Positions 8,578 through 20,303 of a stretch of DNA of 64,000 bases are shown here, in pieces. The notes under the pieces were generated by a model. That model had not been told where the DNA came from. It made no database searches and worked only from the letters and a program-made list of their open reading frames with translations. Origin of the DNA: Bacteroidales bacterium (GTDB taxonomy: Bacteria; Bacteroidota; Bacteroidia; Bacteroidales; UBA932); the NCBI GenBank assembly GCA_016290415.1, contig JAEETP010000003.1, forward strand, positions 20,059 through 84,058, written 5' to 3'. The translations under genes were made by a program, and so were the position numbers. Position 1 is the stretch's first letter; each line of letters opens with the position of its first letter.

Positions 8578-9879
8578 TTAATGAATCGTTTTTAAGACTT
8601 CGTCAAAGCTATCTCCCTTAACGTAGTTGCACTGCTTCTTGTTTATGGGTATTGTCTTCAGGAGGCCTCTTTTTAGCAATGGCTTTATGTCTGACGATGC
8701 GGTGGGCTTGCTTATGCCGAATTTTGAGGCAATGTCGTTGGTAGATAGAGCCAACATCGGGTTGTCCCGTATCATTGACAGTATTGCCGCCTGACGGTGG
8801 TTTATGCCCCCAATGGACAAAATATCTATAGCCCTTTGCTTTTGAGATATCTTTGTCTCTATATATGATTTCAGGTCGTCAAAGGCGTTCTTGAGGACCT
8901 TAAGGTTATATTCAATAAAGTAACCGACATCGTTGTTATCTAACTCTGTGTGTATATATGCATTCTCGTAAGAGGACTTGCTCTTTATGATGACAAGCGA
9001 GATAGAAAGGTATTCGGTAAGCCAATATCCGCTCTTTAGCATATACCAATAGAATAATGCCCTGGCGGTTCGTCCGTTGCCGTCTACGAATGGGTGATAA
9101 TAACCTATTAGGAAATGTATTGTTATAGCCTTGATTATGGGGTGGAGGAAATACTTCCCATCTGAATTGGCAAATGCGCAAAGTTTCTCTATAAACGAAG
9201 GAAGAAGCTTAAAGTCCGGAGGGGTATGAACTATCTCACCGGTAATACCATCCTGTACTACAATGTTGTTACTGGTGCGCAATACTCCCGCATCTTCCGG
9301 ATTGTCCAGGGTGTTCTCCGTCATTATTTCGTGCAGCCGCAGAATAATATCTTCTGACAGAGGGGCGTTTCTGTTTTCTGTTATATACTGGATAGCTGCA
9401 TAGTTGTTGTGAATCATCTGCTCTGCACGTGTTCTGGGGGAGATGTTTCTCCGGAGCATTTCTTTTGCAACCTTGCGAGTAGTTGATGCACCCTCGATCT
9501 GGCTTGAGGCAATAGCTTCTTCCATCTGAGAGGAAGAGAGGAATTTCTCTTGACTGTCTCTGGGAATGATGGACTCGGTGCCCCAATAGCCGCCAAAGTT
9601 CATGTCAAAGTCGTGGCACATCTCCTGCATATGGCTTGTGACAGGAACCCTGATCCCAAATTCTGGCCAGTAGAATGCATAAAGACTTATTCTGGACAGT
9701 TGAGTGGCGGCCCATAATTCCTGAGGAGTAAGATCCCCAGCCTTTTTGTATTTTACATCCGACCAGTAGAGATACTTGTTGTTGATGTCAGCAATTGTGG
9801 ATAAGACTTCTTGGTTGCTAAGTTTTCCAACAGCATCTCTGATGGTTTTCTGGGTCAGAACAGGCGGTTTCTCTAGCAT
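8578..9879 (-). CDS. Fic family protein (AMPylase-type fold with C-terminal winged helix)
   Basis: Fic core 'HPFVDGNGRTARALFYWYML'; inhibitory-helix-like 'SSQIEGASTT'; C-terminal HTH-like segment. Confidence 0.88.
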   Translation of the reverse strand: MLEKPPVLTQKTIRDAVGKLSNQEVLSTIADINNKYLYWSDVKYKKAGDLTPQELWAATQLSRISLYAFYWPEFGIRVPVTSHMQEMCHDFDMNFGGYWGTESIIPRDSQEKFLSSSQMEEAIASSQIEGASTTRKVAKEMLRRNISPRTRAEQMIHNNYAAIQYITENRNAPLSEDIILRLHEIMTENTLDNPEDAGVLRTSNNIVVQDGITGEIVHTPPDFKLLPSFIEKLCAFANSDGKYFLHPIIKAITIHFLIGYYHPFVDGNGRTARALFYWYMLKSGYWLTEYLSISLVIIKSKSSYENAYIHTELDNNDVGYFIEYNLKVLKNAFDDLKSYIETKISQKQRAIDILSIGGINHRQAAILSMIRDNPMLALSTNDIASKFGISKPTASSDIKPLLKRGLLKTIPINKKQCNYVKGDSFDEVLKTIH

Positions 9880-10788: not shown

Positions 10789-13029
10789 TTATTGGGCTGA
10801 GTATACGATCTTGTTGAACCTGAAGAATCCGGCTTGAGTGCCGCGCTTCAGGTCAATCTGAATCCTGTAATACATATTTGCCTGAGGATTGGTAACGGTG
10901 GCAGTAACATCACCCTGACCGGTTCCGTCGAATTCGTAAGTAGTGGTTGAACTGAAGGTATTGGTGGGTGATACAACCAGTCTGATGGCGTTGACCAGGG
11001 AAGGATCAGACTGGGTTATCGACAATGTCACTGTCTTAATTGCCTCCTCAATCGGTGAATTGGTTGTAATGGCAGCCACTGAAGTGTTATCGCTACGCCC
11101 GGCGCGCATCTCTGTCCAATTGGCGTCACCGCCATTATTGATGTATGCTACAGTCAGGTTCAAACCATCACATATATTGATGAAAGATGTGGTATATGTG
11201 GTGACGTTTGTGGTAAAGGTGGTGCCTTTTGCGAATGTAACAGTGTAAGGACGGCTGGGGTCGGTGACCGCAACGTTGCACGTTGCGGATGCGGCGTGGT
11301 ATGACGCATTACCGGCAAATACAGCAGTGATAGTTGCAAAGCCTCTTGCAACACCTGTCAGTTCGCCAGTAGAAGGATCAACGGTAACAACATTGGGGTT
11401 GGAAGATGAATACGTTACCGGAAGTCCGGAAGGTTCTATGGATACAATATTGCTTACTCTTTCGTCCACATTAACAGATATGTTAGAAGTAAAGCCCATA
11501 GAAGGCGTTGGGAGAATAGGCTCATCTGCTTTCACGCGTACATAGAAGGCGAAAGTTTGGTCCTTAATATTTTCAGGGATATCACTAAACAAATCACTAA
11601 TAATTGGTATGTAAGAATAACGACGCCAATCAGAAGAATTATAAATTCCTACCAAACAATTCCTGTTGGTATTAAAAAGATAACCGTGATAAATAGAGAA
11701 GGTGTTGTCACTATTAGTACCAACGCGTACACCATCATTACTTCCTGTGCAGTAAAGCCAAGTGGACGTATTACCGTTAGGATAGAAATGGTAGACCGTT
11801 CCCCACCACCGATGAGAATCCGAGCTCAGCGACCACCGGATCCTCTCTGCAGGCTCTTTTTTAAGTCTGCTGCCGTCGGCCGTCAAAGTCACAGGAACAG
11901 CCTGAGGCGCAGCAGAGGTACCCTTATCGTTCGACATAGCAAAAGTATTACCATTATCGCCCACGATGACGAATACGTCATCAGATGTAATGGAAGAAAT
12001 ATCTCGTTTAACCCAGTAATACTCCTCCTTCTGTTCTGTCTCTGCAGAAGCCATATTGATGCCCATAGTGTTGCGTGCATTCCCCTTGAGGGTCTTGCTG
12101 ATTCCCGTCCAACTCTTATGATATGTCGCCTTGTCGGTCTCTACCACAACATCGAGGGATGTAAGGGTCACCGGCATTACGCTGAGCCAGATATTGATAT
12201 TCGTTTTGTTCTGCGCATCTTTTACAAACGAGAGGTGCGAACCGTCGAGCGTAACGACATTCGACGTTCCGTTGCCGGTGAATGAGCCATCTGCCACGGA
12301 AACAACCTGTTTGCCGGTAAGGTTTGCACCTTCCTGAGCTGTGAGAACCACCTTGAGGATGTGCTCGTCATCTTCAACTCCCTGGAAGTCCTTGAGGGTA
12401 AAGTTACCGTGAGCCACAACGCGGGTCCAATACAAGTTGATGTGTTGGGAAGGGAGTCCGGTGGACCTTACGGTCTTGGACTTGCCAACCAGAATGTCTG
12501 TCTCAGGGTCAAAGGAGTCTGCTGCGGGAATCTGGTATTCCTTCAGGGCAACAGGCACATTAGGAGCACCATTCTGGTCCGTATTAAATTGAGAGCTGGG
12601 GTATACCGCGTAGAATACAAAGTCTCCGGTTTCTGTAGGGCCGGTAAAAGCATTGGTAACAGGTACGGAAAAAGTACCGATGTTTTGCTTCTCTGAATCT
12701 ATGGTAACACCGTTGGACTTATAGAATTTGATGCTATTGTTTGGAGATGCATTTCCGCTTGCATATGCGGCACTCTTGGCCCACCAATTACCGTTGAATG
12801 TAAAGCCAATAAGAATCTTGTCGTCCGTCGACCAAACAATTGATTTTGTGCCTGCGTCCCATGCAGTCTTGGTGGAGGGATCCAGCTGCGGTCTTTCTCC
12901 GGTAAAAGTCAGCTCTGTAACTTCACCGATAGTGTTACCGTTATCCAGACGTTCTTGATCAAGGCCTTTCGAGCACGAAACAGCCGCGAGAAGAGTAACA
13001 AAAATTGCGAGTAAATATCTTTTCATCAT
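10789..13029 (-). CDS. Fimbrillin-like / bacterial Ig-like (BIG2-type) surface lipoprotein, copy 1
   Basis: Signal and lipobox 'LLAIFVTLLAAVSCSKG'; 'STKTAWDAGTKSIVWSTDDKI' fimbrillin-like region; BIG2-like 'YSSSNPNVVTVDPSTGELTGVARGFATITAVFAG'. Confidence 0.75.
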   Translation of the reverse strand: MMKRYLLAIFVTLLAAVSCSKGLDQERLDNGNTIGEVTELTFTGERPQLDPSTKTAWDAGTKSIVWSTDDKILIGFTFNGNWWAKSAAYASGNASPNNSIKFYKSNGVTIDSEKQNIGTFSVPVTNAFTGPTETGDFVFYAVYPSSQFNTDQNGAPNVPVALKEYQIPAADSFDPETDILVGKSKTVRSTGLPSQHINLYWTRVVAHGNFTLKDFQGVEDDEHILKVVLTAQEGANLTGKQVVSVADGSFTGNGTSNVVTLDGSHLSFVKDAQNKTNINIWLSVMPVTLTSLDVVVETDKATYHKSWTGISKTLKGNARNTMGINMASAETEQKEEYYWVKRDISSITSDDVFVIVGDNGNTFAMSNDKGTSAAPQAVPVTLTADGSRLKKEPAERIRWSLSSDSHRWWGTVYHFYPNGNTSTWLYCTGSNDGVRVGTNSDNTFSIYHGYLFNTNRNCLVGIYNSSDWRRYSYIPIISDLFSDIPENIKDQTFAFYVRVKADEPILPTPSMGFTSNISVNVDERVSNIVSIEPSGLPVTYSSSNPNVVTVDPSTGELTGVARGFATITAVFAGNASYHAASATCNVAVTDPSRPYTVTFAKGTTFTTNVTTYTTSFINICDGLNLTVAYINNGGDANWTEMRAGRSDNTSVAAITTNSPIEEAIKTVTLSITQSDPSLVNAIRLVVSPTNTFSSTTTYEFDGTGQGDVTATVTNPQANMYYRIQIDLKRGTQAGFFRFNKIVYSAQ

Positions 13030-13047: not shown

Positions 13048-13206
13048 TTAATCACCATCATCACCAAGCTCACCAAGGTCTTGGTCGCCATAGCCAGCAT
13101 TGGAATCGTTGCCACTGCCGGACTGGAGAATGTTCTCCTCGAAAACCAGCTCGAGGATTTCGGTTACAGGCTGAGAATAAATCTCTTTTTCCTTTTTTAC
13201 GTTCAT
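13048..13206 (-). CDS. Small 52-aa protein, candidate precursor peptide, copy 1 (absent from ORF track)
   Basis: MNVKKEKEIYSQPVTEILELVFEENILQSGSGNDSNAGYGDQDLGELGDDGD. Repeated upstream of the paralogous lipoprotein; 4 of 5 codon differences are synonymous. Confidence 0.75.
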   Translation of the reverse strand: MNVKKEKEIYSQPVTEILELVFEENILQSGSGNDSNAGYGDQDLGELGDDGD

Positions 13207-13356: not shown

Positions 13357-15639
13357 TTATTCTGCGTAAATAATCTTGTTGAACCTAAAGTGACCGTTCG
13401 AACCATTATTATAATAACTACCATCACCTTTCAAATCAATTTCAATCCGATAATACATATTAGTCGCAGGAGCAGTTATGGTAGCTGTAACATCACCTGT
13501 GCCAGTAACATTAAAGGGGTATGAGTCTGCTGAATTAAAGTTATTTGTGGTGGATACAAACAACATGACAGAGTTTACAAGGTTAGTGTTAACTTGTGTA
13601 ATTGATAATGTTACTGAGTTAATAGCTTCTGGAATGGCTGAATTGGTTGTTATTGTAGCCACCGAAGCGCGTTGTCTATTACGCCCAGCGCGCATTTCTG
13701 TCCAATCCTCGTTGCCACCATTATTGATGTATCTCAGAGTAAGGGCTAATTCATCGCAAGTGTTAACAAATCCTGTTGAATTAGTATATGAGGTCACATT
13801 TGTTGTAAATGTAGTGCCTTTCTTGAAAGTAATAGTATAAAGATCTCCAGGATTGACAACATTAACCTCACAGGTTGCAGAAGCAGGATTATAGGATGCA
13901 TTACCTGCAAAGTTGGCGTGGATGGTGGTTGTACCACGAGAAATGCCTGTTACTTCGCCTGTGTCGGGATCTACGGAAGCAATGGAATCATCATCTGAAT
14001 AGTATGTCAAAGCCAGTCCGGAAGGATCAGTGGATGCCATATTGCTAACGCTCTCGCCCATATTAACTGTTATAGGAGAAGACGTAAAGCTTATAGAAGG
14101 TGTAAGTAGGTCATCATCTTCAGCGACTCTCACATAGAATGCAAAAGTCTGGCCGTTAATATTGGGTATTTGACCATTATTACTCCGCGCATAACAACGC
14201 CAATCCGTTGAGTCGTAAATGCCAATATAGCGTCTTGAATTCCCAACGGTATTCACTAGATAGCCAGAACGCCCCATCTCGAATAATTTGTTGTCACCTG
14301 TGCCAACCCTAACGACATCACCAGTAGAGCTGGTGCAATAAAGCCAAGTAGTTGTAGAACCATTGGGATAGAATGTGTAATATGTCGTTTCGCCAGACGA
14401 TTGTTTGCTGAGATTCCACTGGAGCGTAGCTGAGGGATCACCAATAAGTTTGTCGCCAGTAGCAGTAACCGAAACGGGAACGGCGCTAGGTGCGGATGTG
14501 TCACTATTATTAGACATTGCATATGTATCTCCATCATCGCCGACAATTACAAATACATCAGTCGTAGTAATAGCGGATATGTCTCTTTTAACCCAATAAT
14601 AATTCTTTTTCTCCCTGGTTGCAGAGGCCATATTTATGCCCATAGTGTTGCGGCGATTGCCCATGAGGGTCTTGCTGATTCCCGTCCAACTCTTATGGTA
14701 TGTCGCTTTGTCGGTTTCAACAACAACATCCAGCGCGGTCAGGGTCAACGGCATAACACTGAGCCACACCTTCAAATTTGTTTGTTCTTCGGAAGTGGTG
14801 GGATCTACTTCATTTACAAATGAAAGGTTTGTACCATCAAGTGTGACAGTATTTGATGTGACATCGCCGAGATAATCACCAGTGGCTAAGGATATTTTTT
14901 GTTTGCCCGTCAAGTTGGCACCTTCCTGCGCTGTAAAAACAACCTGGGTGATGGTCTCGTCATCTTCAAATCCTACAATTCTCTGGAAATTCTTCAGTGT
15001 GAAATAGCCGTGAGCCACAACTCGTTTCCAATACAAATCAATAGTTTCAGTAGGGAAGCCGGGTTCGCTGGTTGTGATAGTATGAGAGTTGCCTACCAAT
15101 ATGTCTGTTTTGGGATCAAAGGAGTCATCTACGGGATACTGATATGAATTTAGAGTTGCGTAGATATCAGGGACAGCATTCTGTGTATTGGTGTTAGCCA
15201 GAGTGCTGGGATAGAACGAATAAAAGACAAATTCTCCCGATTCTGTGGGGCCGGTAAAGGCATTATTACCGACAGGAACGGTAAAAGTACCAATGTTCTG
15301 CTTCTCTGAATCAATAGTAACACCGTTCGACGTATAGAATTTAACGTTACCGGAACCACTGATGGCGGCATTTTGTCCCCACCATTCTTCATTAAATGTA
15401 AAGCCTATACGAATCTTGTCGTTCTCCGACCAGACGATTTTTGAACCATCCCAGGCAGTCTTGGTGGAGGGTTCCAATTGAGGCCTTTCGCTGGAAAATG
15501 TAAGATACGTGGTTACTTGATCAATGGCGTTATTGTCGTTGGTATTATTGCCATCAATGCGCTCTTCCTCGAGGCCTTTGGTGCAAGAGGCGAGGGCGAG
15601 GATCGAAACGAAAAATGCGAGTAAATATCTTTTCATCAT
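13357..15639 (-). CDS. Fimbrillin-like / bacterial Ig-like (BIG2-type) surface lipoprotein, copy 2
   Basis: Paralogue of 10789..13029 along its length; lipobox 'LALASCTKG'; BIG2-like 'YSDDDSIASVDPDTGEVTGISRGTTTIHANFAG'. Confidence 0.75.
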   Translation of the reverse strand: MMKRYLLAFFVSILALASCTKGLEEERIDGNNTNDNNAIDQVTTYLTFSSERPQLEPSTKTAWDGSKIVWSENDKIRIGFTFNEEWWGQNAAISGSGNVKFYTSNGVTIDSEKQNIGTFTVPVGNNAFTGPTESGEFVFYSFYPSTLANTNTQNAVPDIYATLNSYQYPVDDSFDPKTDILVGNSHTITTSEPGFPTETIDLYWKRVVAHGYFTLKNFQRIVGFEDDETITQVVFTAQEGANLTGKQKISLATGDYLGDVTSNTVTLDGTNLSFVNEVDPTTSEEQTNLKVWLSVMPLTLTALDVVVETDKATYHKSWTGISKTLMGNRRNTMGINMASATREKKNYYWVKRDISAITTTDVFVIVGDDGDTYAMSNNSDTSAPSAVPVSVTATGDKLIGDPSATLQWNLSKQSSGETTYYTFYPNGSTTTWLYCTSSTGDVVRVGTGDNKLFEMGRSGYLVNTVGNSRRYIGIYDSTDWRCYARSNNGQIPNINGQTFAFYVRVAEDDDLLTPSISFTSSPITVNMGESVSNMASTDPSGLALTYYSDDDSIASVDPDTGEVTGISRGTTTIHANFAGNASYNPASATCEVNVVNPGDLYTITFKKGTTFTTNVTSYTNSTGFVNTCDELALTLRYINNGGNEDWTEMRAGRNRQRASVATITTNSAIPEAINSVTLSITQVNTNLVNSVMLFVSTTNNFNSADSYPFNVTGTGDVTATITAPATNMYYRIEIDLKGDGSYYNNGSNGHFRFNKIIYAE

Positions 15640-15657: not shown

Positions 15658-15816
15658 TTAATCACCATCATCACCAAGTTCACCAAGGTCTTGGTCGCCA
15701 TAGCCAGCATTGGAATCGTTGCCGCTGCCGGACTGGAGAATGTTCTCCTCGAAAACCAGCTCGAGGATTTCGGTAAGAGGTTGAGAATAAATCTCTTTTT
15801 CCTTTTTAACGTTCAT
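15658..15816 (-). CDS. Small 52-aa protein, candidate precursor peptide, copy 2 (absent from ORF track)
   Basis: MNVKKEKEIYSQPLTEILELVFEENILQSGSGNDSNAGYGDQDLGELGDDGD; 51/52 identical to copy 1. Confidence 0.75.
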   Translation of the reverse strand: MNVKKEKEIYSQPLTEILELVFEENILQSGSGNDSNAGYGDQDLGELGDDGD

Positions 15817-15911
15817 TTTTGTATAGTAATTTTATTATTCTTCTGGGTACAAATTTTACAAACCGCAAAGTTAAAAATTTTCCTGAAAATACGTAGTATT
15901 TTATAATTCAC

Positions 15912-15919
15912 TACTTTTG
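15912..15919 (+). promoter_or_regulatory. Bacteroidetes-type -7 box (TACTTTTG)
   Basis: Matches TAnnTTTG, 8 nt before ATG 15927; implies a leaderless or near-leaderless transcript. No clear -33 TTTG seen. Confidence 0.4.
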
Positions 15920-15926
15920 CAGTGAA

Positions 15927-17048
15927 ATGGCAAAGGAAAACCGACATACCTCCGCGTTTTTTGCGCTGATGAGGGCGGGGCTCTGGGAGACCGGGGCTCG
16001 GCTGGGGGTGTATGCGCCGGTGGACTGGGAGGCGATATACAATCTGGCGCTGGAGCAGTCTGTGGCGGGGATTGTTGCGGCTGGATTGGACCAGGTGGAA
16101 GATTTGAAGGTGGCCAGGCAGGATGCGCTGCGCTTTGTGCAGCAGGTTATCCCGCTGGAGAAGCGCAACTCCGATATGAATGCCTTTATCTCAGAGCTGG
16201 TGGGTAAGCTGCAGCTTGATGGCATCCGTGCCGTGCTTATAAAGGGGCAGGGGGTGGCGCAATGCTATTCAAAGCCTCTGTGGCGTATGTCGGGCGACGT
16301 GGATCTGCTGCTTGACCAGGAAAACTATAATAAGGCGAAAGAACTGCTGCTTCCGATGGCCTCGGCGGTTGAAAGGGAGCACCCAAGAAATCTTCACCAG
16401 GGGTTGGAATTCGGCAAATGGGTGGTGGAACTTCACGGCAGTTATCACGCAAATATCTCGAAGCGGTCGGCGGCGGTTTTGGACCGGCTGCAGGGCGAAA
16501 CTTGCACAGGCGATGCGACCCGCACCTGGCGCAATGGCGAGGTGGACATTCTGCTGCCGAGCCCCGACAACGACACCCTGTTCATCTTCTCGCACATCCT
16601 GCAGCACTTTTTCTTTGGCGGAATAGGGCTGCGCCAGGTATGTGACTGGTGCCGGCTGCTGTGGACTTATAGGGAGAATATTGACCGGCAGCTGCTGGAA
16701 TCGCGGATAAAGGAAATGGGCCTTATGACCGAATGGAAGGCGTTCGCGGCTCTGGCGGTGAAATGGCTGGGAATGTCGGAAGAGGCGATGCCGCTCTATG
16801 ACGCATCGGCACGCTGGGAGCGCAAAGCCAGCCGAATTGTCAAATTCATCCTGAAGGTCGGCAACTTTGGCCACAACCGCGACATCAGTTACCACCAGAA
16901 ATATCCGTTCGTGATATACAAAGCAATTTCGCTGGCGCGCCATACGGGCGATTTTTTCAGATATCTTACAATCTTCCCCCTGGACTCGTTTGGAGTCTAT
17001 TTCAGGATGCTGGCATCGGGCTTCGAGACCGCCGCGAAAGGGGAGTAG
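15927..17048 (+). CDS. Nucleotidyltransferase family protein (PF14907-type)
   Basis: 'IRAVLIKGQGVAQCYSKPLWRMSGDVDLLLDQENYNKAKELL' is typical of this family, which occurs in RiPP and lasso-type clusters. Confidence 0.75.
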   Translation: MAKENRHTSAFFALMRAGLWETGARLGVYAPVDWEAIYNLALEQSVAGIVAAGLDQVEDLKVARQDALRFVQQVIPLEKRNSDMNAFISELVGKLQLDGIRAVLIKGQGVAQCYSKPLWRMSGDVDLLLDQENYNKAKELLLPMASAVEREHPRNLHQGLEFGKWVVELHGSYHANISKRSAAVLDRLQGETCTGDATRTWRNGEVDILLPSPDNDTLFIFSHILQHFFFGGIGLRQVCDWCRLLWTYRENIDRQLLESRIKEMGLMTEWKAFAALAVKWLGMSEEAMPLYDASARWERKASRIVKFILKVGNFGHNRDISYHQKYPFVIYKAISLARHTGDFFRYLTIFPLDSFGVYFRMLASGFETAAKGE

Positions 17049-17053
17049 TGCTT

Positions 17054-18679
17054 TTATTCGGGTATATCGACTACGGCATCTGCAAAGCGGATGGCGGCGT
17101 CGCGGTGTGAGATAAGGATGATGGTCTTGCCGGCGTGATGGCGGCGATGGATGTTCTCCAGCATCCGGCTTTCGGTGTCGGCGTCCAGGGCAGAGGTGGA
17201 TTCGTCAAGAATAAGTATGCCACCGGGACGCAGCAGGGCACGGGCTATGGCGATGCGCTGCGCCTGACCTTCTGACAGGCCGCTGCCTGACTCTCCGCAG
17301 GGGGTGTCTAGTCCCTCCGGCAGATCATATACGAAAGCGGCTTCGGCGGTGTAGAGCGCCTCCTTGATTTCACTTAGGGAGGCATCTTCTTTGGCCAGCA
17401 GCAGGTTGCTGCGGATGGTGCCGCTGAGCAGGGAGTTGCCCTGTGGCACGTACATAAAGTTGACTCTGAGAGCGCCTCCTGCAGGGTGGCCATCCACTGT
17501 GATCTGGCCCTCGGTGGGTTGCAGCAGGCCCAGGATAAGGTTGATGAGGGTGCTCTTGCCCACTCCGGTAGGGCCGGTGATGACATTGAATGAGCCGGAT
17601 TTGAACTGACAGGAAAAGTTCTTGAGCACAGGCCTGCTTAAATCTGGATATGCGAAGGTCACGTTGGAAACCGTGACTTCCGGTGCATCGGGTAGCAGAA
17701 TGGATTCCGCCTTGGGCTCTTCTTCAAGCTCCTGAAGGTCCATCAGGCGTTCTATGGAGGTGATTGCCCTGATGAATGTGGGAACCTGGCGGCCAAGTTC
17801 TGCGATGGGGCGCTGTACCTGTCCAACCAACTGTAAGAAGGCGGTCATCATACCGTAAGTTACGGTTCCGGCGGCTAGGCCAAAGATGCCCCACAGGAAG
17901 GCGGCTACGTGTCCGGCCTGGAAGCCGAGCAGCATCAGACCTCGGGCAAATGCATTATAGTTGAGGCGCTTGCGCGTCTTGCATTCGATATCTGACTGGA
18001 GCCAGCCAAAATGGGTCATTATCCGCTCTACACCCGTAAGCGTCAGCATCAGCACGCGATGCTGAAAGCTTTCTTGCATAGTCTGCTGGACTTCGCTCTC
18101 ACGGGCGCGTATCTCCGCCATAATCTTACGGAACCTTTTGAAGAACAGTCTGGACCCGACCACTGCGGCAAACATCAGAATAATAAGTACCCAAAGCAGG
18201 TTGGGGGCCAGCGTCAATAGATATACAGATGCTGCCAGCAACTGTGCAAGTGTGATGATAATGCCCGGGAAAGAGTCCACAAGCAGATCTGAAGTGATGC
18301 GGATGTCGTCTTCCAGACGGTTCACGATGTCGCCCGAGAGGAACTTCTCCCGGCCATTCCAGCGGCTGCGGAGCACGTGGCCGAAAAGCTGATTGCGGAT
18401 GTGGTTTTGCGCCTTGACGCTGTTGTATGAATTCCACCAGTTGGCAAAGATGATTACGGCAATCTGAACCGCCAGGATCCCTATGAACAGTGCGATGCCC
18501 CGGCCCAGGGAGTCACTGCTCACCTTGGTGGCGATATCCACCAGGTGTTTGCTGGCCCAGACAAAACCCAGCGATGCAGCTATTCGCACAAGGCCCGCGG
18601 CGATGCTTACCAGCATCCGCCACCGAAGGGTGGAGGACATAGCCCACAGGGTTTTTATGCATTCAGAAAGTTTACGCAT
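17054..18679 (-). CDS. ABC transporter, fused permease/ATP-binding (type I exporter)
   Basis: N-terminal TM region; Walker A 'GPTGVGKST', signature 'LSEGQAQRIAIARALL', Walker B 'ILILDEST'. Confidence 0.88.
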   Translation of the reverse strand: MRKLSECIKTLWAMSSTLRWRMLVSIAAGLVRIAASLGFVWASKHLVDIATKVSSDSLGRGIALFIGILAVQIAVIIFANWWNSYNSVKAQNHIRNQLFGHVLRSRWNGREKFLSGDIVNRLEDDIRITSDLLVDSFPGIIITLAQLLAASVYLLTLAPNLLWVLIILMFAAVVGSRLFFKRFRKIMAEIRARESEVQQTMQESFQHRVLMLTLTGVERIMTHFGWLQSDIECKTRKRLNYNAFARGLMLLGFQAGHVAAFLWGIFGLAAGTVTYGMMTAFLQLVGQVQRPIAELGRQVPTFIRAITSIERLMDLQELEEEPKAESILLPDAPEVTVSNVTFAYPDLSRPVLKNFSCQFKSGSFNVITGPTGVGKSTLINLILGLLQPTEGQITVDGHPAGGALRVNFMYVPQGNSLLSGTIRSNLLLAKEDASLSEIKEALYTAEAAFVYDLPEGLDTPCGESGSGLSEGQAQRIAIARALLRPGGILILDESTSALDADTESRMLENIHRRHHAGKTIILISHRDAAIRFADAVVDIPE

Positions 18680-18682
18680 AGG

Positions 18683-18949
18683 TTATTCGAGTATGCCGTT
18701 TTCCCGCCAGATGTTCACCATTGTGGTGGCATCTTCGCGAGCGCGGTCTGTGGATACTTCATATCTCTCGGTGAGCAGTGTCACCAGATCTTCTATTTCA
18801 AAGTCTTTGTCCTTGACCTGTTCCCAAAGGTAAGCCGCGGAGTCGTTCAGGGAGAGCATTTTGTTGAAATCTACCAGTGCGAGACCTTCTGCAATTACTA
18901 TATGCTCCCCGCATAGGGAGCGAAGGGTAAAGCCGTCTTTTATCTTCAT
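18683..18949 (-). CDS. PqqD-like peptide-binding protein (RRE)
   Basis: 'MKIKDGFTLRSLCGEHIVIAEG...FNKMLSLNDSAAYLWEQVKDKDFEIEDLVTLLTERYEVSTDRAREDATTMVNIWRENGILE'. ATG at 18949 overlaps the upstream gene by 4 nt. Confidence 0.8.
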   Translation of the reverse strand: MKIKDGFTLRSLCGEHIVIAEGLALVDFNKMLSLNDSAAYLWEQVKDKDFEIEDLVTLLTERYEVSTDRAREDATTMVNIWRENGILE

Positions 18950-19356
18950 ACTATTCGTCGGTATATTGCCAGTAAATATCTTCTGATAGGTTTGAGCAGG
19001 CGCCAAAGGGTGCCGCGGGTGGGTTTGTGGCCGTTTATGAGCACCACGGTGCCCAGTATGTCTTGCGGCCGGCAATGCTCGGTGCCGGAGATGTTTCCGT
19101 CGCCCATAAGTTCTATCTTGCCGTCGCAGGTTTTTATGACACGGTGCAGCACATAACGGGTACCCGCCAGGCGCGCCAGTACTATGTCGCCGACTTCTAC
19201 TCCAGGGAGTTTTTTAAGCGTCACGCTGTCCCTGCCGCCCTTGATAAAGGGAAGCATACTGGTTCCCTTTGGGGTGATGCATACCTCGCGGCCCTCTGCT
19301 AGCAGAGCGCCCGCATCTTCCAGCAGGACTTCGTTGGTGAGGGTCTTTCTATCCAT
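18946..19356 (-). CDS. S24/S26 family (signal peptidase-like) peptidase
   Basis: 'PKGTSMLPFIKGGRDSV' (Ser box), 'GDIVLARLAGTRYVLHRVI', 'LMGDGN'. Confidence 0.75.
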   Translation of the reverse strand: MDRKTLTNEVLLEDAGALLAEGREVCITPKGTSMLPFIKGGRDSVTLKKLPGVEVGDIVLARLAGTRYVLHRVIKTCDGKIELMGDGNISGTEHCRPQDILGTVVLINGHKPTRGTLWRLLKPIRRYLLAIYRRIV

Positions 19357-20218
19357 TTACGGTATTGTAACAGAGTAGGGCGGCATCGCGGTCCGGGCGG
19401 CATTCCAGGCGGTAGAACGGGACTGCAGCGCAGATTCCCTCCAGAGTCCGGTGCCAGCCGTCGGCGCATTCTTTAACAGGCCGGAAAGAGGATGAGGATT
19501 CCATCAGTGTGGCGTAGGCCTGGATTACCGTCAACTTTTTGATATGGTTTTGTGGTGCCTGGCACAGGCTTACGATGGCACCCACGGGGGCGTCCTGGGC
19601 CTTGTAACAGGGCGTCTTGCCGCTCCAGGGGGTGCCATAGACACGGACGGTGCCATCGGGCATCAGCCTGAGGACCGGGTTGTCGTCGTTTAGCAGTTCG
19701 GTGCCGGGGATGTTTTCTATCCACAGGCGGCTGTGGGTGCTCTTACCGGTGCCGCTCCGGCCCAAAAACAAGTAGCCCTTGCCGCAGTTTGTCACTACGG
19801 ATGAGTGTATTACAAGGGCTCCTTTCTGTGCTGTGGAGAAGGTGAACATCAGCATCATGGCCGAGTCAATGGCGTAGCGGTCGTCTGTGCCTGTAAGGTG
19901 TAGTTCGGCACTCTTGAAGTCTTGAGTGACGGCCATCCGACCAGCCGCAGGCTTGTCCGGAACCGGCTGCATTTCAAAGATATAGCCGTTTTCGCTGGTA
20001 TATATGGTGATGACGGGGAAGCCGGGCGTTTCCGGGGTTTTATATAGCAATGAACTGTTTGCCACCGGCATATCAGGCGTCACTCTGAGGGCAAACAGGA
20101 CCTCTATCTCGGGTGTCTGTACCCTGAAAGGTAGTAAGTTAGCAGGCTCGAACGGCAGGTCCTCCGCCGTAAAGCAGAACCCCGCAACGCTATATGCCTG
20201 AAAGCTTTTCATTATCAA
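19349..20218 (-). CDS. HPr kinase-like P-loop protein (HprK C-terminal domain-like)
   Basis: Walker A 'GYLFLGRSGTGKSTHSRLW', 'LLNDDNPVLR', 'GTPWSGK' are typical of HprK-like proteins in PqqD-containing clusters. Confidence 0.75.
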   Translation of the reverse strand: MIMKSFQAYSVAGFCFTAEDLPFEPANLLPFRVQTPEIEVLFALRVTPDMPVANSSLLYKTPETPGFPVITIYTSENGYIFEMQPVPDKPAAGRMAVTQDFKSAELHLTGTDDRYAIDSAMMLMFTFSTAQKGALVIHSSVVTNCGKGYLFLGRSGTGKSTHSRLWIENIPGTELLNDDNPVLRLMPDGTVRVYGTPWSGKTPCYKAQDAPVGAIVSLCQAPQNHIKKLTVIQAYATLMESSSSFRPVKECADGWHRTLEGICAAVPFYRLECRPDRDAALLCYNTVNG

Positions 20219-20303
20219 ACAAAGATAAAAATTATTTCAACACTTATGAAAATTGTTAAATTTGCAGTTCCTATCAGAAAAAGTATTATTAATTATTATA
20301 ATT

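Follow-up and report, generated by a model that had tools for sequence, protein, structure and literature searches.

What do two nearly identical 52-residue genes, each lying just upstream of a lipoprotein gene, do in a Bacteroidales genome? Both are found in the window, by which we mean the whole 64,000-nucleotide stretch of DNA that was analysed, and the first-pass annotation had put them forward as small genes that were overlooked. We consider it likely that they encode RiPP precursors like those from which the linear polyphosphorylated peptides (LPPs) are made. In this reading, the precursor genes are mostly scattered over the genome, each is paired with a lipoprotein, and a single cassette serves them in trans. 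The two genes are:

15658..15816, minus strand: precursor-like peptide copy 1, 52 aa, with a YSQP motif, an ILQSG junction and an acidic Gly/Asp tail
13048..13206, minus strand: precursor-like peptide copy 2, 52 aa

Two overlooked small genes are protein-coding

Both ORFs were present as claimed, each running from ATG to stop. The copies differ by 6 nt in 5 codons: GTT/GTA, CAA/CAG, AGC/AGT, and GAA/GAG are synonymous, and CTT/GTA produces L14V. Counted as 5 synonymous and 1 non-synonymous change, and distributed 1/0/5 over the codon positions, these differences correspond to a dS of 0.17, a dN of 0.008, and a dN/dS of 0.05, a ratio that rests on the small number of six changes. Near-identity of the copies also takes in approximately 35 nt upstream and the beginning of the lipoprotein gene, which means that recent duplication or conversion is involved. 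Because six changes since a recent duplication are thin evidence, homologues were gathered.

Across 26 homologous pairs of at least 65% identity, pN/pS was 0.27. The 15 pairs that aligned without gaps carried 46, 43, and 130 changes at codon positions 1, 2, and 3, and when pN/pS was computed for them in all six frames, the annotated one scored lowest (0.23; the other five ranged from 0.38 to 1.48), so the antisense ORFs listed for 13081 and 15691 are not supported as the true genes. Most database matches were open frames free of internal stops, a check which the first-pass annotation had named for frameshifts and stops. The wider comparison removes the doubt that came from the few changes in the window pair, and the proposed purifying selection is borne out. 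The 52-aa genes are real and protein-coding.

A large peptide family with a YxxP motif

The peptides belong to a large Bacteroidales family, from which we gathered 127 distinct members of 34 to 62 aa. Searched against Pfam and NCBIfam profiles, the peptide gave chance matches only and no fitting model, and searches of the open-access literature turned up no earlier description of the peptides, or of fimbrillins paired with them. A profile built from 20 members had matches in 56 of 150 genomes sampled from the window's own taxonomic family, with up to 16 per genome. The genome of the window itself holds a third, divergent member (L003), and there too a lipoprotein lies downstream. Short peptides at the Prevotella-type loci L140, L150, L152, and L153 (e.g. 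MKKEYMKPTMDVVEIKG...) match the family profile at 8 to 21 bits, and the distribution suggests that the family reaches into Prevotella.

The YxxP motif, judged by its Y and P, is present in 126 of the 127 members. In the alignment of 110 non-redundant members, these two columns are invariant by construction because the alignment was anchored on YxxP, and the further conserved columns, counted from the Tyr, are E at +6, V/I at +7, E/D at +9, E at +13, I/F at +16, C/L/A at +17, S at +19, and G at +20, giving the consensus YxxPx[ITV]EVxE[VIL]xxExx[IF][CLA]xSG. A Ser occurs at +18 to +22 in 107 of the 110, and a signal-peptidase-like pattern at +17/+19 in 104. The tail that follows this junction is acidic, rich in Gly, Asp, and Glu, and frequently ends with a Trp. 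On direct reading, the members have no obvious Sec signal, so a dedicated exporter would be needed.

Most peptide genes precede a surface lipoprotein gene

The genes that follow the two copies in the window are:

13357..15639, minus strand: partner lipoprotein of copy 1, with lipobox C19, a fimbrillin-like N-terminal region and a Big_2 domain; its ATG follows the peptide stop by 18 nt
10789..13029, minus strand: lipoprotein partnered with copy 2, sharing 62% identity with the copy-1 partner; its ATG likewise follows the peptide stop by 18 nt

This arrangement is general. A same-strand lipoprotein gene that passed a strict lipobox test directly followed 100 of the 124 members with enough sequence downstream (∼81%), at a median gap of 17 nt and within 60 nt in 89 of the 100; several of the genes downstream of the 24 other members look lipoprotein-like by eye. 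For control ORFs of the same loci, the corresponding figure was 71 of 482, a rate that is inflated because the loci were picked around peptide–lipoprotein pairs. The suggestion that peptide and lipoprotein form a bicistronic transcript is therefore well founded as to orientation, the 18-nt spacing in the window, and the generality of the pairing, and we would call the two genes probably co-transcribed. As a whole, the earlier reading was correct in its gene call and incomplete in its interpretation: the bicistron is half of the story, and the YxxP leader motif and the LPP-type cassette had been missed.

The Bacteroidales −7 box has the consensus TAnnTTTG, and one candidate was predicted upstream of peptide copy 1:

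15866..15873, minus strand: candidate −7 box TAACTTTG, matching TAnnTTTG

Such boxes also stand directly before the NTP_transf_5 gene (15912-15919, plus strand) and the HprK-like gene (20220-20227, minus strand) described below, and the window contains more copies of the motif than expected (51 vs. 29). Just past the second peptide–lipoprotein pair, at 8578-9879 on the minus strand, the window encodes a protein that combines a Fic domain and a MarR-like winged helix.

Among 72 aligned partners, the lipobox Cys is invariant, and they have in common a T-K...W-x-x-G-D stretch that is typical of fimbrillin-like proteins; its strict W..GD pattern is found in 56. PF13149 itself was matched by only 2 of the 72 scanned partners. 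The C-terminal modules vary widely, including LRR, Fib_succ_major, DUF285, Big_2, laminin G, and one GH20. The aligned partners (e.g. L193:2772-4304) thus include quite unlike proteins, one of them the GH20 glycosidase.

Lipoproteins often confer immunity, and variable pairs that occur many times per genome, together with an exporter and a modification cassette, would also be expected of a bacteriocin-like toxin precursor whose lipoprotein is the immunity or receptor protein. The peptide cores are short and strongly acidic, however, with a mean net charge of about −4, and the partners are large and adhesin-like, unlike small immunity proteins. We judge a toxin function to be improbable.

A probable five-gene modification cassette in the window

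All five genes of the LPP core set lie in the window, at 15927-20218 (Lpp names are those of the published lpp cluster discussed in the last section):

15927..17048, plus strand: NTP_transf_5 (PF14907), 115 bits vs. a cut-off of 31.2; oriented divergently to the peptide; corresponds to LppN/PsmN
17054..18679, minus strand: ABC exporter with membrane and ATPase domains and no reported match to a C39 peptidase domain; corresponds to LppD
18683..18949, minus strand: PqqD-like discrete RRE, 88 aa from its ATG, with N35 and D73 invariant
18946..19356, minus strand: small S24/S26-type peptidase with Ser33/His71/Asp86 invariant; corresponds to LppS, the peptidase that removes the leader
19349..20218, minus strand: HprK-like kinase with His138/Lys159/Asp178/Asp179 invariant; counterpart of LppK

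Copy 1 and the NTP_transf_5 gene are divergently oriented and 111 bp apart. At 80 loci selected by HprK, we found S24 in 75, PqqD in 73, ABC in 56, and NTP5 in 17 (single-sequence search); among the 59 kinase genomes of the 150, PqqD was present in 58 and NTP5 in 53.

The PqqD-like protein has a predicted RRE fold, with the lasso B1–leader complexes TbiB1 (5v1u) and TfuB1 (6jx3) as its best Foldseek matches, and the PqqD-like profile picks up TfuB1 at 1.5e-7. N35 and D73 are invariant across 16 RREs and align with the N and D of TfuB1. In the peptidase, S33, H71, and D86 are invariant across 17 sequences; Foldseek matched LexA/UmuD and signal peptidase folds alike and so did not separate S24 from S26, which the invariant His does. 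The His-Lys-Asp-Asp motif used for the kinase was taken from lasso kinases.

The leader motif, the RRE, the HprK-like kinase, NTP_transf_5, and the ABC exporter are all common to phosphorylated lasso clusters, and the peptides could on these grounds be taken as lasso precursors of a paeninodin-like cluster, with its YxxP leader, RRE, and kinase. The B2 protease (PF13471) was nevertheless above cut-off in only 1 of the 150 genomes and gave no match in the genome of the window, the window genes that were compared with Pfam included no lasso cyclase, and the cassette has an S26-type peptidase instead. We consider this identity largely refuted by the missing B2, exceedingly improbable, and have rejected it. 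In only one of the 150 genomes do PqqD, a B2 protease that truly matches PF13471, and NTP_transf_5 lie within ∼4 kb of each other; this locus, G090:C1:11326-15608, is probably a genuine lasso cluster.

Peptides and cassette co-occur across genomes

By Fisher tests, which ignore shared ancestry, peptides and cassette were strongly associated: in the 150 same-family genomes, HprK was present in 48 of the 56 peptide genomes (P = 3e-20) and PqqD likewise in 48 (P = 2e-14), and when 247 genomes were sampled across the order, 15 of the 18 peptide genomes were among the 18 with a strong HprK match (P = 2e-18), a co-occurrence that spans 10 taxonomic families (P = 2e-10 when collapsed to families). 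Eight of the 56 peptide genomes had neither HprK nor PqqD, including G022, which is 99% complete and has a strong peptide match, and in 11 of the 59 HprK genomes no peptide was detected. Segatella baroniae B14 carries the cassette (locus L128) and gave no more than a weak match to the peptide.

Of 145 peptides, 19 lay within 10 kb of an HprK gene, where 1.3 were expected, and only 16 of 80 kinase-selected cassettes had a recognisable peptide within ∼10 kb. A strictly local cluster is thereby ruled out. Because most peptides lie far from the cassette and so few loci include one, we propose one cassette with dispersed substrates, and it follows from the same count that service in trans is a claim resting on co-occurrence.

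These numbers bear on another explanation, in which each peptide would be a small protein working for its own lipoprotein alone, as a translational coupler, chaperone, or regulator, with no biochemical link to the cassette and with co-occurrence reflecting clade history. The tighter pairing with lipoproteins (100/124) than with the cassette (19/145) and the peptide genomes that have no cassette are consistent with it. Against it, the peptide tracks HprK rather than the fimbrillins within Mfa_like_1-positive genomes (8/10 vs. 2/23, P = 1e-4), conservation covers both the YxxP motif and the residues with which RREs bind motifs of this kind, and the co-occurrence recurs in separate families. On balance, we regard a dedicated-partner role as unlikely, though it deserves the most weight among the alternatives that we considered.

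Proposed pathway and its possible meaning

Returning to the reading of the peptides as LPP-like precursors, the pathway that we infer, from modification through cleavage and export to an interaction between peptide and lipoprotein, would run as follows. The peptide would be co-transcribed with its fimbrillin-like surface lipoprotein, and the PqqD-like RRE would bind its N-terminal YxxP stretch, which spans Y10 to P13 in the window peptide. The HprK-like kinase would then phosphorylate the conserved junction Ser, which in the window peptide is S29, 19 residues past the Tyr. The small S26-type Ser-His-Asp peptidase is predicted to cut next, at the leader/core junction, I-L-Q-S-G in the window and I-[CLA]-x-S-G in general form. 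NTP_transf_5 may optionally attach a further group to the phosphate; in pseudomycoidin, an NTP_transf homologue adds hexoses to phosphate. Lastly, the ABC exporter would carry the core, which is short and acidic, into the periplasm. One cassette per genome may serve the mostly scattered precursor genes in this manner. We propose this order of steps based on the invariant RRE, peptidase, and kinase residues, the Ser at +18 to +22 in nearly all members, and the pseudomycoidin precedent. The cut site is ambiguous; we somewhat favour the Ser at +19 as the phosphate acceptor, and its being the last leader residue is a credible second assignment.

Since each precursor appears to be co-transcribed with a lipoprotein, the mature peptide most likely acts with that lipoprotein at the cell surface, and the tight pairing points to a cell-surface role. 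We tentatively extend this to a system of surface decoration or signalling throughout the Bacteroidota, in which the cassette would modify and export many phosphopeptides, each matched to a lipoprotein, so that RiPP chemistry might build, cap, or tune adhesins instead of making a secreted antibiotic; we hold this to be possible, with the balance somewhat against it. More than ten pairs are present in several genomes, which makes the substrate repertoire readable from sequence. The proposal offers a testable function for abundant Bacteroidales small genes that have no model.

Comparison with known systems

The partner lipoproteins resemble the fimbrillin-like (Mfa_like_1) and adhesin-like lipoproteins of Bacteroidales in their SPII signal and divergent fimbrillin-like N-terminal domain; they differ from them in rarely matching PF13149 and in the diversity of their C-terminal modules. 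With phosphorylated lasso peptides such as paeninodin and pseudomycoidin, the system shares an RRE-bound leader, an HprK-like kinase, a nucleotidyltransferase homologue, and an exporter, whereas the junction peptidase here is of the S26 type and the genome of the window has no B2 protease.

The closest parallel is with the LPPs, described from the lpp cluster of Paenibacillus alginolyticus and called restricted to Bacillota by the authors (Popov et al. 2026; PMC13381572). There, the RRE LppB captures YxxP via N33 and D70, and Ser3 of the core is the residue that LppK phosphorylates. The SpI-like LppS (Ser-His-Asp; S29/H68/D93) removes the leader with the assistance of the RRE, LppD pumps the product out, and for the NTP transferase LppN no action has been proved (PMC13381572). 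The two systems have the same gene set, consisting of an SpI-like Ser-His-Asp peptidase, a discrete RRE, an HprK-like kinase, an NTP transferase, and an MsbA-like exporter, and similar precursors, with an N-terminal YxxP, a Ser close to where leader and core meet, and a C-terminus that varies. As with the LPPs, lasso B2 is missing from the window's genome, and the window genes tested include no lasso cyclase. The peptidase triad is S33/H71/D86 here and S29/H68/D93 in LppS, and N35/D73 of the RRE match N33/D70 of LppB by motif position. The present system differs in its Bacteroidales host, in its mostly dispersed precursors that would be served in trans, in the surface lipoprotein that accompanies each, and in the motif after YxxP. 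The LPP leader consensus YxxPxVLxHQxIxFETxxS is not kept, with only YxxP and the junction-near Ser in common, and for this reason we write "LPP-like" and not LPP. Set beside the published description, the window system is LPP-like by its gene set, its YxxP motif, and its catalytic and binding residues, and it extends an LPP-type RiPP class, first reported in 2026 and said to be confined to Bacillota, to a dominant order of the gut and rumen.
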